This document shows, in pieces, positions 15,503 to 50,211 of a DNA stretch of 51,789 nt. A model generated the notes under the pieces. That model saw nothing but the letters and a program-made list of their open reading frames with translations, had not been told where the DNA came from and ran no database searches. The stretch's first letter is position 1, and each line of letters opens with the position of its first letter. The DNA is from Alphaproteobacteria bacterium (GTDB taxonomy: Bacteria > Pseudomonadota > Alphaproteobacteria > Bin65): positions 1 through 51,789 of the forward strand of contig JAJFFJ010000133.1 of the NCBI GenBank assembly GCA_021776685.1, in the 5' to 3' direction. Both the position numbers and the translations under genes were made by a program.

Positions 15503-16387
15503 ATGACCCTGATCTGGACCATCGAAATCTACGTGCCTGCCGTGGCTGCGGACGCCTTTGAGGCGGCGGTGATGCCATTCTGCGACGTGGTGTCGGGCTT
15601 TGAAGTGCCGGACCAGCCGGATACCTGGCAGATCTACGGTCACGCCCCGGTTGCCCCCGACCATCCAGCTTTGACGGCGGCGCTTGCCGTGGCGGCGCTG
15701 ACCGCAGGGGTGGCGGCACCTGAACCCCGTGTGCTGCCGCTCGCGCCCATGGATTGGCTGGCGGAGAACCGCAAGTCCTTCGACCCGGTGCGTGCAGGCA
15801 GGTACTTCGTTCATGGAGATATGCATGACGGGCAGGTTCCGGCAGGGGCGATCCCGGTCAGGCTGAACGCGGGCCCCGCCTTTGGCTCCGGCACCCATGA
15901 AACCACGCGGGGCTGTTTGCTGGCTTTGGCGGATATGGCGCGGCGGGGATGGCGTCCGCAGCGGGTTCTGGATGTGGGCACGGGCTCCGGTATCCTCGCC
16001 ATCGCGGCAGCGCTGACCTGGCCGGGGATGGGGCGCGGCGCGATTTTGGCCAGCGATATCGATCCAATCGCAGTGCAGACGGCGGCCGACAATGCCCGCC
16101 GCAATGGTGTCGCCGGGGTCATGGAGTGCCGTGTGGCGACCGGGCTGACCGGGTTGCGGCGGCGTGCGCCGGCGGATCTCGCCTTCGCTAATATCCTGGC
16201 GGGGCCGCTGATCGACATGGCCGGCGATCTGGTACGAACCCTGGCACGTGGGGGAGCGTTGATCTTGTCGGGATTGCTGCAGCATCAGGCGGCGGGCGTG
16301 GATGCCGCCTATCGTGCGCGGCCGATGCGGCCGCTGCCGCCCATCATCCTGGGCGACTGGGTCACCCTTCGATACCGCCGTAGTTGA
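15503..16387 (+). CDS. prmA: Ribosomal protein L11 methyltransferase
   Basis: PrmA methylates ribosomal protein L11 using S-adenosylmethionine. In 294 residues the sequence shows a short N-terminal substrate-recognition domain (1-80), the family motif AGPAFGSGTHETTRGCLLAL (123-142), SAM motif I LDVGTGSGILAIAA (156-169), acidic motif II ASDIDPIAV, and a DLAFANILAGPL stretch matching the family NIL motif. The start is the ATG at 15503, where family similarity begins. It is downstream of the HCCA-like isomerase gene and upstream of the dioxygenase. Proximity of prmA to an aminopeptidase P gene, as here, recurs in alphaproteobacteria. Confidence 0.93.
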   Translation: MTLIWTIEIYVPAVAADAFEAAVMPFCDVVSGFEVPDQPDTWQIYGHAPVAPDHPALTAALAVAALTAGVAAPEPRVLPLAPMDWLAENRKSFDPVRAGRYFVHGDMHDGQVPAGAIPVRLNAGPAFGSGTHETTRGCLLALADMARRGWRPQRVLDVGTGSGILAIAAALTWPGMGRGAILASDIDPIAVQTAADNARRNGVAGVMECRVATGLTGLRRRAPADLAFANILAGPLIDMAGDLVRTLARGGALILSGLLQHQAAGVDAAYRARPMRPLPPIILGDWVTLRYRRS

Positions 16388-16473
16388 GCCACAGAAATGT
16401 GATTTGTCCGTCGCCGTCGATCCGTCCATCTGGAAATGCACCATCTGGACAGGAAATGGCAGGAGGTTAACCC

Positions 16474-17103
16474 ATGTCCACCCGCATCCATCGCCGCGCC
16501 TTGCTCGCAGGCGCCGCTGCAGCAGGAATAGTCGTTCCGGCAGCGGCCCGGGCGCTGCTGCTGACCCCGCGCCAGACGGAAGGTCCTTTTTATCCAGACC
16601 GCATGCCGCCGGATATCGATGCGGATCTGCTGCGGGTTCCCGGGCGTAAACCCTATGCCAAAGGGAAGGTGGCCCACGTACGTGGCCGGGTGCTCAATCG
16701 TCGGGGCAGCCCGCTGGCGGGCATCAAAGTGGAGATTTGGCAGTGCGACGGGGCAGGCCGCTATCACCATAGCGGGGACGCCCGTTCAGACGGGCAGCGG
16801 GCCGACCCGGATTTTCAGGGCTATGGCCATGTGGTGACCCGGCGGGATGGCGCTTTCGCCTTCCGCACCATCCGGCCTGTGGAATATCCCGGCCGGACGC
16901 CGCACATCCATTTCAAGCTGACGCGGGGGGATCGGCATCTCCTCACCACCCAAATGTATTTGGCGGGTAACCCCGGCAATATCGGCGACGGCCTCTATCA
17001 AAGCCTGTCGTCAGCAGGCAAGCGCGCGGTCACGGTCGCATTCAAGCCCGCCGATACCGTGGAGACGGGTGCGCTGCTCGGCGTGTTCGACATTGTCCTG
17101 TAG
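16474..17103 (+). CDS. Secreted intradiol ring-cleavage dioxygenase-like protein
   Basis: The 209-residue protein resembles the beta subunit of protocatechuate 3,4-dioxygenase and related intradiol enzymes, which open catechol-type rings with non-haem Fe(III). The four expected iron ligands are visible: Y97 (GRYHH), Y138 (PVEYPGR), H144 and H146 (TPHIHFKL). QTEGPFYPDRMPPDID precedes them, as in the family. The N-terminus TRIHRRALLAGAAAAG has a twin-arginine pattern, so export folded through Tat is likely; this separates it from cytoplasmic catabolic enzymes. AGGAGG lies 7 bases before the ATG. No partner alpha subunit or beta-ketoadipate genes are nearby, and exported members of this group are mostly uncharacterised. 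Confidence 0.87.
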   Translation: MSTRIHRRALLAGAAAAGIVVPAAARALLLTPRQTEGPFYPDRMPPDIDADLLRVPGRKPYAKGKVAHVRGRVLNRRGSPLAGIKVEIWQCDGAGRYHHSGDARSDGQRADPDFQGYGHVVTRRDGAFAFRTIRPVEYPGRTPHIHFKLTRGDRHLLTTQMYLAGNPGNIGDGLYQSLSSAGKRAVTVAFKPADTVETGALLGVFDIVL

Positions 17104-17120
17104 CATGGTCCTGTAGCAGG

Positions 17121-17147
17121 AAAAAAAGGCGGCGCCGAAGCGCCGCC
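17121..17147 (-). terminator. Strong Rho-independent terminator of the DUF1127-like gene
   Basis: On the minus strand GGCGGCGC and GCGCCGCC form a perfect 8-base stem closed by a TTCG tetraloop and followed directly by seven T. It lies about 74 bases past the stop of the DUF1127-like gene. On the plus strand there is no T-tract, so it serves the minus strand. Confidence 0.93.
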
Positions 17148-17205
17148 AGTCAGGGAGAAGAGAGGTCAGAGAGGATAGGTGGGGCCACCTGGTGATGGCC
17201 CCCGG
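17121..17205 (-). ncRNA. Candidate 3'-UTR small RNA downstream of the DUF1127-like gene
   Basis: Between the gene's stop and its terminator the minus strand holds a 7-base hairpin (GGGGCCA/TGGCCCC, 17181-17202). After it comes an unstructured, purine-poor stretch of about 33 bases (17148-17180) with CCTCTCTGACCTCTC and CTTCTCCC, and then the terminator hairpin. C/U-rich, anti-Shine-Dalgarno-like segments between hairpins behind a DUF1127 gene are the layout of the alphaproteobacterial cuckoo/CcsR small RNAs, which are processed from DUF1127 transcripts. The exact CCUCCUCCC motif is not present, so the match is by architecture only. Confidence 0.4.
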
Positions 17206-17220
17206 TATTAGGCTGTCGTG

Positions 17221-17529
17221 TCAGGCTGCGGCGCGCGGGCCGGGCACACCCACGGGGGTGTTGCTGTTGGCGTTCCGTCTGGCAGTTTCGTCATGGCGCC
17301 GTGCACGGGTGACCTGCGCGACGGAAATGCCGGCGTCAGCGATGGCGCCGTCGCCCATGGCGCGGATTTCCTGGTCGGCGGCCTTGCGGCGCGCGTCGTA
17401 GCTGAACAGGCGCACGACGGCCCTGGAGGCGGCGCCAAATAGCTCGCCCAGATGTGCACTGCGCGCGGCGTGGGCCTTGCGCAGGATGGCTGCCTGATCA
17501 GGCAGCTGGAAGCGGCTGTCGTAATACAT
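17221..17529 (-). CDS. DUF1127-like small protein
   Basis: The 102-residue protein starts MYYDSRFQLPDQAAILRKAH and contains RRKAADQEIRAMGDGAIADAG, then ISVAQV, which fits the DUF1127 (YjiS-like) pattern of an Arg-rich helix followed by L/I-x-D-x-G-I-S/T-x-x-x-I/V. Small DUF1127 proteins of alphaproteobacteria bind RNA or affect RNA turnover and nutrient responses, but this one is longer and more divergent than the standard form. AAGGAA lies 7 bases before the ATG at 17529. The upstream region is AT-rich with a short palindrome; downstream are a hairpin, a C/U-rich stretch and a strong terminator. It faces away from pepP and converges on the dioxygenase gene. Confidence 0.7.
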   Translation of the reverse strand: MYYDSRFQLPDQAAILRKAHAARSAHLGELFGAASRAVVRLFSYDARRKAADQEIRAMGDGAIADAGISVAQVTRARRHDETARRNANSNTPVGVPGPRAAA

Positions 17530-17574
17530 GTGAGTTCCTTTCAACCGAACCGGCGGCTCGTGATTGATGGGCCG

Positions 17575-17660
17575 GTTTTGTGCGGTGCATATAACGTATT
17601 TGGTATAATTTTTGGGAAAATCCCCAACATATACTGCATTGCAGCAATGAACTTTCTGCA
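17575..17660. promoter_or_regulatory. AT-rich divergent control region with palindrome CATTGCAGCAATG
   Basis: The 228-base gap between the DUF1127-like gene and pepP is far richer in A/T than its surroundings. It contains a perfect palindrome with 6-base arms (CATTGC-A-GCAATG, 17637-17649), a shorter inverted repeat TTGGG/CCCAA near 17612-17627, and several TATA-like hexamers in both directions. It should carry the promoters of both genes. The palindrome is a candidate operator; which gene it controls is not evident. Confidence 0.45.
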
Positions 17661-17757
17661 TAGATATCAAGTGATCCGATCGGCTGAGGCAGATTCAGTC
17701 CCTATGGCCCGTACCGGCATGCTTGATTGGCCCCGCAGGGGTGCCTAGCTTGGTCCT

Positions 17758-19617
17758 ATGCCTGACAGTTCTCCCTCCGACAGCACCACAATTTCCGCCC
17801 AACGCCTCGCCGCCCTGCGCGCGAAACTGGTCGAGCAGGGCCTCGACGGGTTCCTGGTGCCACGTGCCGACGAGCATCAGGGCGAGTATGTGCCTGCGAA
17901 TGCGGAGCGGTTGCGCTGGCTGACCGGGTTCGACGGCTCGGCAGGACAAGCAATCGTGCTGGCCGAACGTGCGGCCCTGTTTGTAGACGGGCGCTATACC
18001 CTTCAGGTGCGCGACCAGGTGGACACCGATCTGTTCGAGATCTGCCATCTGATGGAAACGCCGCCGCCGGGTTGGCTGGCGGATGCCGCGGCCGCAGGCT
18101 GGAAGATCGGCTTCGACCCCTGGCTCCATCCACCCGATGCCGTCCGGCGATTGAGCCGGGCGCTGGCGCGCTCGGATGCGGAACTGGTGCCGGTGGACCA
18201 GAATCCCGTCGATGCCGTGTGGACGGACCGGCCACCGCCGCCAGCTGATCCCTTTACCGCCCATCCCCTCGACTATGCCGGCGTGGCGTCTTCGGAGAAA
18301 CGCCGGGGGATCGGCGAGACCATCGGGGATGAGGGCGCTGTGGCGGCGGTGCTGACCCTGCCGGATTCCATCGCATGGTTGCTCAATATCCGCGGTACCG
18401 ATGTGCCTCGAACACCGTTTCCCCTGGCCTTCGCCCTGGCCCATGCGGACGGCCATGTGAGCCTGTTCGCGCCGCCGGGCAAGGTGGATGATGCGCTTCT
18501 GGCCCATATGAACGATGACCTGGGCAATGACTTGGACAATGATCTGGGCGATGACTTCGTCGACGGCGTCACAGTGGCGCCGCGAGAGGAGTTGGGCGCG
18601 GCGCTGGACGCGTTTGGCGGCAAAACGGTGATGGCCGACCCGGCCAGCGCGCCGTCCTGGATCTTCAACCGTCTGGAAGCAGTCGGTGCGGAGATTGTGC
18701 GCGCTGTAGATCCCTGTCAGCTACCCAAGGCCTGCAAGAACCCTGCGGAGATCGATGGCACCCGCGCGGCGCACCAGCGCGATGGCGCGGCGCTGACCCG
18801 CTTCCTCGGTTGGCTGGATGCGGAGGCGCCCGGTGGCGACCTGACGGAAATGGACGCGGCAGCCAAGCTTCATGCCCTCCGGGGTGAGAGCAACCTGCTG
18901 CGCGACCTGAGCTTCGACACCATCTCCGGGGCAGGAGCCAACGGCGCCATCGTCCATTATCGGGTCAACGATGCGACCAACCGGCGGCTCGAGCCGGGTA
19001 GCCTCTATCTGGTCGATTCCGGCGGTCAATATCCCGACGGGACCACGGATGTCACCCGCACCATCGCCATTGGCACGCCGTCTGATGATATGCGCCGGCA
19101 TTATACGCTGGTGCTGCAAGGGCACATCGCGTTGGCCACAGCGCGCTTTCCAGCCGGTACCACAGGCTCGCAACTGGACGCTTTTGCGCGTCGGCCTCTC
19201 TGGGACGCTGGCCTCGACTACGATCATGGCACCGGCCATGGCGTTGGCAGCTATCTCTCTGTGCATGAAGGACCGCAGCGTATTTCCAAGCTGCCCAGCA
19301 CCGTCGCACTCAGGCCCGGCATGATTGTCTCCAACGAGCCCGGCTTCTATCTGGAAGGCGCCTACGGCATCCGGATCGAAAATCTGGTCGTCGTCCGCGA
19401 GGCGGAGATGGATACTGATCGTGACATGCTCTGCTTCGAGACCCTGACCCTCGCCCCGCTGGATCGGGCGCTGGTGGATGTCACGCTCCTGAGCGCTGAT
19501 GAGCGGGCCTGGGTGGACGCCTATCATGAGCGGGTGCACGAGGTGATCGGCCCGCGCGTGGATGGGGAAACCGCTGGCTGGCTTGAAACGGCCACCCGCG
19601 CCCTTGAAGCAGGCTAA
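17758..19617 (+). CDS. pepP: Xaa-Pro aminopeptidase (aminopeptidase P, M24B)
   Basis: The 619-residue metallopeptidase removes N-terminal residues that precede proline. It is the long three-domain type: two creatinase-like N-terminal domains (about 15-155 and 165-325), the M24 pita-bread catalytic domain (about 335-555) and a C-terminal extension. Metal ligands are D420, D431 (GTTDVTRT), H494 (HGTGHGVGSYL), E527 (SNEPGFYLEG) and E541 (GIRIENLV). An acidic low-complexity insert, DDLGNDLDNDLGDDFV (residues 253-268), is encoded by four imperfect 12-base repeats. The ribosome site before the ATG is weak. The gene is convergent with the small secreted protein at 19637. Confidence 0.93.
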   Translation: MPDSSPSDSTTISAQRLAALRAKLVEQGLDGFLVPRADEHQGEYVPANAERLRWLTGFDGSAGQAIVLAERAALFVDGRYTLQVRDQVDTDLFEICHLMETPPPGWLADAAAAGWKIGFDPWLHPPDAVRRLSRALARSDAELVPVDQNPVDAVWTDRPPPPADPFTAHPLDYAGVASSEKRRGIGETIGDEGAVAAVLTLPDSIAWLLNIRGTDVPRTPFPLAFALAHADGHVSLFAPPGKVDDALLAHMNDDLGNDLDNDLGDDFVDGVTVAPREELGAALDAFGGKTVMADPASAPSWIFNRLEAVGAEIVRAVDPCQLPKACKNPAEIDGTRAAHQRDGAALTRFLGWLDAEAPGGDLTEMDAAAKLHALRGESNLLRDLSFDTISGAGANGAIVHYRVNDATNRRLEPGSLYLVDSGGQYPDGTTDVTRTIAIGTPSDDMRRHYTLVLQGHIALATARFPAGTTGSQLDAFARRPLWDAGLDYDHGTGHGVGSYLSVHEGPQRISKLPSTVALRPGMIVSNEPGFYLEGAYGIRIENLVVVREAEMDTDRDMLCFETLTLAPLDRALVDVTLLSADERAWVDAYHERVHEVIGPRVDGETAGWLETATRALEAG

Positions 19618-26064: not shown

Positions 26065-26115
26065 TGAGATCCGCTCGCTTTTTCCGCGTTTGATTTTTTC
26101 TTCGTTTTCACGGAG

Positions 26116-26218: not shown

Positions 26219-26246
26219 AAAAAAGGCCGCCCGGAGGCGGCCTTTT
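26219..26246 (-). terminator. Rho-independent terminator behind ftsZ
   Basis: AAAAGGCCGCC (26221-26231) and GGCGGCCTTTT (26236-26246) form a perfect 11-base stem with a TCCG loop on the minus strand, followed by a T run and TTCTTG. It lies about 35 bases past the ftsZ stop and should end the dcw transcript. The stem carries A and T runs on both sides, so it could also work weakly on the plus strand. Confidence 0.93.

Positions 26247-49805: not shown

Positions 49806-50211
<406 letters not shown>

Follow-up and report, generated by a model that had tools for sequence, protein, structure and literature searches.

Do the bases that follow a small DUF1127-like gene on the minus strand of this contig from an uncultured alphaproteobacterium encode a regulatory RNA of the cuckoo type, or do they only end a messenger RNA? 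Cuckoo RNAs have as their defining trait an ultraconserved loop motif, and the paper on the family is reportedly that of Reinkensmeier and Giegerich from 2015. The window analyzed here, the whole stretch of 51,789 nucleotides, had been read in a preliminary description as carrying a DUF1127-like gene with a cuckoo-like 3′ region. We therefore consider in turn the gene, the RNA region behind it, the same region in relatives, and the sequence upstream.

The gene encodes 102 aa (17221..17529, minus strand; stop TGA at 17223-17221) and lies divergent from pepP, which codes for an M24 peptidase (17758-19617, plus strand). Compared with Pfam, its protein matched nothing even with E values as high as 10 allowed, and a PF06568 scan of the same genome, which placed four other DUF1127 genes above the curated cut-off, gave no match at C39, where the window gene resides. 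Relatives supply the missing link. The divergent pepP and DUF1127 pair is common to the window and two family relatives of genus g4 that keep the gene, L007 and L008 (genomes G003 and G005), whose proteins match Pfam DUF1127 above the cut-off (36.3 and 34.7 bits) and are 37% and 34% identical, respectively, to the window protein. Moreover, hhalign of the window protein against an alignment of seven DUF1127 positional orthologs gave a probability of 93 and an E value of 2.4e-7. Because synteny, identity and hhalign all link it to members above the cut-off, the gene is counted as DUF1127 by homology: sequence comparison identifies it as a positional ortholog of true DUF1127 genes, the homology being clear despite the Pfam miss, and the C-terminal part of its protein reads as a degenerate DUF1127. 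The label DUF1127-like thus holds through the relatives and the gene order, but not by direct Pfam or PF06568 detection.

On a broader scale, a DUF1127-type open reading frame (ORF) is divergent to pepP in 36 of 95 loci, the window counted. This set derives from 42 ORFs in 40 of the 95 loci, after removal of L017 and L019, which duplicate the genomes of L008 and L007, and of L026 and L087, which are long non-DUF1127 ORFs. In genera g2 and g3 (eight genomes; L010-L016 and L018), the positional gene, read by eye, is an N-terminal stub of ∼60 aa in which no DUF1127 domain is visible.

Behind the stop codon, three elements follow one another on the minus strand. The first is a predicted hairpin, GGGGCCAUCACCAGGUGGCCCC (17202-17181), with nine pairs and a 4-nt loop. 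The second is a C/U-rich linker of 33 nt, ACCUAUCCUCUCUGACCUCUCUUCUCCCUGACU (17180-17148), containing the proposed seed CUCUCUUCUCCCUGAC. The third is an intrinsic terminator, GGCGGCGC-UUCG-GCGCCGCC (17147-17128), with eight G-C pairs and a run of seven U residues at 17127-17121. The 100 nt after the stop fold with a predicted energy of −38.8 kcal/mol, compared to −26.5 kcal/mol for shuffled sequences (z of −4.44; 0 of 200 shuffles as good), and the first hairpin alone (27 nt) has a z of −3.66, equaled by 1 of 200 shuffles. The linker, with 26 pyrimidines in its first 32 nt, is unpaired in the predicted fold save for three weak pairs. Just one cluster per strand of the window contains 32-mers in which 26 or more nucleotides are pyrimidines, and on the minus strand that cluster is the linker itself. 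A scan of the window for terminator-like sites returned 12, with 27 of 32 pyrimidines just upstream of the one described here and 14-21 at the other 11. The hairpin, the C/U-rich stretch and the UUCG-capped terminator noted in the preliminary description are thus all present, with fold and pyrimidine content beyond chance.

In its location the region agrees with the cuckoo RNAs, as it is the 3′ UTR of a DUF1127-type gene and is ended by a terminator. The motif CCUCCUCCC, however, is not present in the window 3′ UTR, the C/U tract sits in the linker and not in the hairpin loops, and the terminator loop is UUCG. The covariance search with the cuckoo family models that had been proposed as a check was negative for the window copy: neither ar14 nor CcsR1 (Rfam RF02344 and RF02791) gave a match in 651 nt of the window, even with E values up to 10 accepted. 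The best small RNA match at the site was instead SorX (RF02784), with 26.1 bits and an E value of 4.6e-4 over the 651 nt, short of the gathering score of 46.6; the suhB/MmgR model matched with 16.8 bits (gathering score, 41). When the whole window was searched against Rfam, the SorX match had an E value of 0.036 and was second only to RNase P, a bacterial class A RNA located at 49806-50210 (minus strand; 316.7 bits). Since it carries no CCUCCUCCC and matches neither ar14 nor CcsR1, the putative window RNA falls outside the cuckoo family as defined, although its position and layout suggest a cuckoo RNA that has changed.

The relatives show what occupies this position elsewhere. The gene behind the DUF1127 gene is a convergent dioxygenase, 51-54% identical in G003 (g4) and G001 (g2), and with the order pepP, DUF1127 and convergent dioxygenase shared, the 3′ UTRs occupy the same slot. 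In L007 and L008 this slot holds a classical cuckoo layout of two hairpins with C/U loops, namely a hairpin with loop UCUUCCCCUCCC or ACUCCCCCUCCC and then a terminator. Specifically, L007 has a GACCGGG-UCUUCCCCUCCCAAG-CCCGGUC hairpin followed by a terminator whose loop is exactly CCUCCUCCC, and L008 has ACUCCCCCUCCC as its first loop and UACCCCC as its second. The ar14 model gives 38.6 bits for L007 and 31.5 for L008, and the CcsR1 model 30.7 and 23.5, all below gathering. Over the 11 family genomes searched, L007 and L008 provide the two highest ar14 matches, in that order, and L007 the highest for CcsR1; none of the matches in any genome exceeds the gathering score, and both models also match in some unrelated control genomes, so that the argument for the relatives is one of position, not of score. 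The arms of the window terminator contain GACTGGCGGCG and CGCCGCCTTTTT, shared with the terminators of L008 and L007. Similarity between the window 3′ UTR and those of the relatives is otherwise short and GC-rich, with 4 of 500 and 16 of 500 shuffles scoring as well. In the eight g2 and g3 genomes (the stub loci), no terminator or C/U region was seen by eye behind the gene; as far as seen by eye, this counts against strong conservation of the RNA region. Genus g1 is represented among the genomes searched by one, that of the window itself. Thus, of the cuckoo-like layout first proposed, the DUF1127 positional ortholog and a cuckoo-type RNA at the same place in L007 and L008 stand, while the window copy departs from it in its motif, in the site of its C/U tract and in its model matches. 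A count of C/U loops in the 36 positional-ortholog 3′ UTRs (19 of 36, compared to ∼9.7 expected from shuffles) was set aside and is not used, because the set is redundant, with many Roseomonas and Kiloniella loci, and the definition of a loop was too permissive.

Known systems offer a precedent for such a unit. In Rhodobacter, the transcript of ccaF1, a DUF1127 gene, is cut by RNase E into the mRNA and CcsR1-4, according to passages of PMC10253847, and the association of DUF1127 with CcsR is named CIN1 in part of PMC8625941. As described there, the CcaF1-CcsR1-4 unit of Rhodobacter sphaeroides is like the window in having a small DUF1127-type gene, a structured C/U RNA in the 3′ UTR and a Rho-independent terminator. 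It differs in that it comprises four RNAs with CCUCCUCCC, whereas the window has one, without CCUCCUCCC, with its C/U tract in the linker and UUCG as the terminator loop. The CcsR locus of Rhodobacter has an RpoHI/RpoHII promoter. The ar14 RNA NfeR1 of Sinorhizobium, for its part, resembles the putative window RNA in being of the C/U anti-Shine-Dalgarno kind and is activated by LsrB through an upstream element, and L007 and L008 match ar14 weakly; the excerpted account in PMC10746234 gives NfeR1 three hairpins, each with CCUCCUCCC, unlike the window RNA, which has neither that motif nor a model match.

On these comparisons the putative window RNA is probably homologous by position to a CIN1-type DUF1127-sRNA unit but divergent from it, with its seed moved from the loops to the linker. 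The fuller reading, that the 3′ UTR is a positional homolog of small RNAs of the cuckoo (CcsR/ar14) type and is co-transcribed with the DUF1127-like mRNA, processed and active in trans, has in our judgment about an even chance of being correct. It is supported by a structure and C/U tract beyond chance, the shared slot, the cuckoo layout of L007 and L008, the shared terminator arms, the presence of hfq in the window's own genome (G000), the published CIN1 precedent, and a best Rfam match to SorX, itself derived from a 3′ UTR. It is weakened by the lack of CCUCCUCCC and of ar14 or CcsR1 matches, a SorX score below gathering, g2 and g3 loci without an RNA, the short GC-rich character of the similarity, the failure of 13 further loci with the same upstream element to match either model (see below), and the outcome of a simple scan for sigma-70-type promoters, which found 0 sites in 16000-18500.

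The simplest scheme is the one described for Rhodobacter, and on it we infer a route of transcription, processing, Hfq binding and base pairing under a regulator. Most likely, a single transcript would start at a promoter bearing a LysR-type (VtlR/LsrB-like) element, span both the gene and the putative RNA, and end with the UUCG terminator. Cleavage by an endonuclease, RNase E by analogy, would then free an RNA of ∼80-100 nt, shielded by its 5′ hairpin and the terminator, to which Hfq or the DUF1127 protein could bind. Its targets would be purine-rich Shine-Dalgarno regions of other mRNAs, base-paired to the unpaired C/U linker. A syntenic cuckoo homolog that has lost the ultraconserved loop motif would illustrate how a seed of this kind can be rebuilt, and would mean that searches relying on the motif overlook cuckoo members.

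The strongest competing explanation is that of an ordinary mRNA 3′ end, in which the hairpin and terminator serve only as the protective terminus of the DUF1127-like mRNA where two convergent genes meet and the C/U tract is a decayed cuckoo remnant with no action in trans. The window protein is itself degenerate (no Pfam match), the g2 and g3 genes have lost their C-terminal half and show no RNA, the anti-Shine-Dalgarno motif is absent from the window 3′ UTR, and a cuckoo match is missing from most DUF1127 genes that share the upstream element (0 of 13 have one), all of which fit a mere 3′ end. A passive remnant accounts less readily for a stable first hairpin and for a linker that no other pyrimidine cluster on its strand equals in strength and whose composition sets this terminator-like site apart from the other 11. 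We regard this explanation as a serious one, though it falls somewhat short of an even chance.

The sequence upstream of the gene bears on how the unit may be controlled. A conserved element of 29 nt, TATGCA-N7-CATTGCTGCAATGCAG (17634..17662, minus strand), is marked by motif comparison as a candidate VtlR/LsrB-type box or PhaR operator, and a second TGCRNYGCA site, TGCACCGCACAA, lies at 17578..17589 (minus strand). Aligned by eye, the element reads YATGCR-N7-CATTGCTGC-RNY-GCA and is conserved before positional DUF1127 orthologs. The core TGCRNYGCA occurs in 13 of 36 of their upstream regions, compared to 2.0 expected from shuffles, and 10 of those 13, the window included, read CATTGCTGC-RNY-GCA. 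The exact pattern GCATTGCTGCRNYGCA is found at 50 places in 46 of 385 genomes of the class, against 2 for the reversed control. The window copy (17662-17634) is outside the 50 because T replaces the first G of GCATTGCTGCRNYGCA, and the single such place in the window's own genome, C121, has no DUF1127. Of the 50 places, 30 were fetched as loci; a DUF1127-type ORF follows directly at E <1e-4 in 12 of them and at 0.03 in a 13th, and at least two of these loci repeat loci of the pepP set (L154 is like L058, and L157 like L067). None of these 13 further loci matches ar14 or CcsR1, which means that there is no general coupling of element and RNA. Conservation of the element before DUF1127 genes extends across Alphaproteobacteria, including outside Rhizobiales; one paper calls LsrB unique to Rhizobiales.

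In Brucella, VtlR activates three DUF1127 genes and AbcR2, and the motif given for it in passages of PMC12595884 is CAATGCAGCCATGCA. The window sequence CATTGCTGCAATGCA equals it at 12 of 15 positions, a match that is not significant alone because the window contains seven such matches against 3.18 expected. The LsrB consensus GCAT-N3-TG-N3-T (from an excerpt of PMC8844928) has one mismatch in the window (TCAT) and none in L007, and LsrB is described in the consulted part of PMC10746234 as activating NfeR1, the ar14 RNA, through an upstream element. By its sequence, then, the upstream element resembles the VtlR/LsrB box tied to DUF1127 genes and to NfeR1, and offers a testable link of one regulator, DUF1127 proteins and anti-Shine-Dalgarno small RNAs outside Rhizobiales.

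The upstream palindrome was at first taken to be simply a PhaR operator, an idea that was lowered to a rival after the VtlR/LsrB motif descriptions. This alternative concerns the regulator only and is compatible with the other readings: the element would be an operator of PhaR (AniA), and the unit, as is the case for mmgR of Sinorhizobium, would be part of the carbon-storage (PHB) regulon. Consistent with it, the two TGCRNYGCA sites are 54 bp apart, the second being a full match to the published PhaR 12-mer TGCRNYGCASMA (consensus from part of PMC6201568), PhaR is encoded in the genome, and the single Phasin_2 gene found (L144, G000:C23) has three TGCRNYGCA sites upstream, as expected under PhaR control. 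The conserved element, however, exceeds a PhaR site in length, and it resembles VtlR/LsrB descriptions that are experimentally tied to DUF1127 genes. No work linking PhaR with DUF1127 was apparent from the titles listed in a limited look at the literature. We consider PhaR control possible but rather unlikely. Least probable, and in our view improbable, is an Hfq-dependent RNA of the SorX/MmgR type unrelated to cuckoo: like SorX of Rhodobacter, which is 3′-UTR-derived and has CUCCCUG before its terminator, the window has an unpaired CUCCCU seed at such a place and gives the SorX and suhB/MmgR matches above, but both are below gathering, SorX is described as arising from the 3′ UTR of another host gene, ompR-1, and synteny points to cuckoo-bearing DUF1127 relatives.

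Returning to the positional cuckoo homolog, a more specific version, doubtful at present, is that the small RNA has changed type. In place of its loop anti-Shine-Dalgarno seeds it would have a single linear C/U stretch (CUCUCUUCUCCC) as seed, flanked by a closed hairpin and the UUCG terminator, its targets would have shifted from AGGAGG-type to AGGGAGA/AGAGAGG-type ribosome sites, its DUF1127 partner would be decaying below recognition, and the unit would answer to a LysR-type (VtlR/LsrB) or PhaR switch whose conservation before DUF1127 genes reaches far outside Rhizobiales. In a simple calculation the linker duplex gives −11.4 with AGGGAGA, −10.6 with AGAGAGG and −8.9 with AAGGAGGUG, whereas CCUCCUCCC prefers AAGGAGGUG (−9.9); these figures are arithmetic on short strings and not evidence of targets. 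The pattern AGGGAGAAG-N3-12-ATG occurs at 12 places, compared to 1 in the reversed control, and an open frame of 130 aa or more follows 7 of the 12. This excess is expected because AGGGAGAAG is itself Shine-Dalgarno-like, and the search is exploratory, with no target claimed.

A search of the window's own genome for an orthodox cuckoo RNA at another place gave 19 copies of the motif CCTCCTCCC, compared to 26 of the reversed control, and the folds around these sites, judged by eye, show no cuckoo pair with a terminator. Three of the eight ar14/CcsR1 matches listed for this genome were inspected (L126, L130 and L134); one is tRNA-like and two are without two C/U-loop hairpins. On the sites inspected, the idea of an orthodox cuckoo RNA elsewhere in this genome was rejected. 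The other 32-nt stretch of the window that equals the linker in pyrimidine content lies at 26070-26111 (plus strand) and is followed downstream, at 26224-26243, by a terminator-like hairpin that is bidirectional. In G005, a separate locus (L128, G005:C546:2289-2383) holds a cuckoo-looking RNA with a loop containing CUCCCCUCCUCUC and then a strong terminator, which matches ar14 with 26.5 bits.
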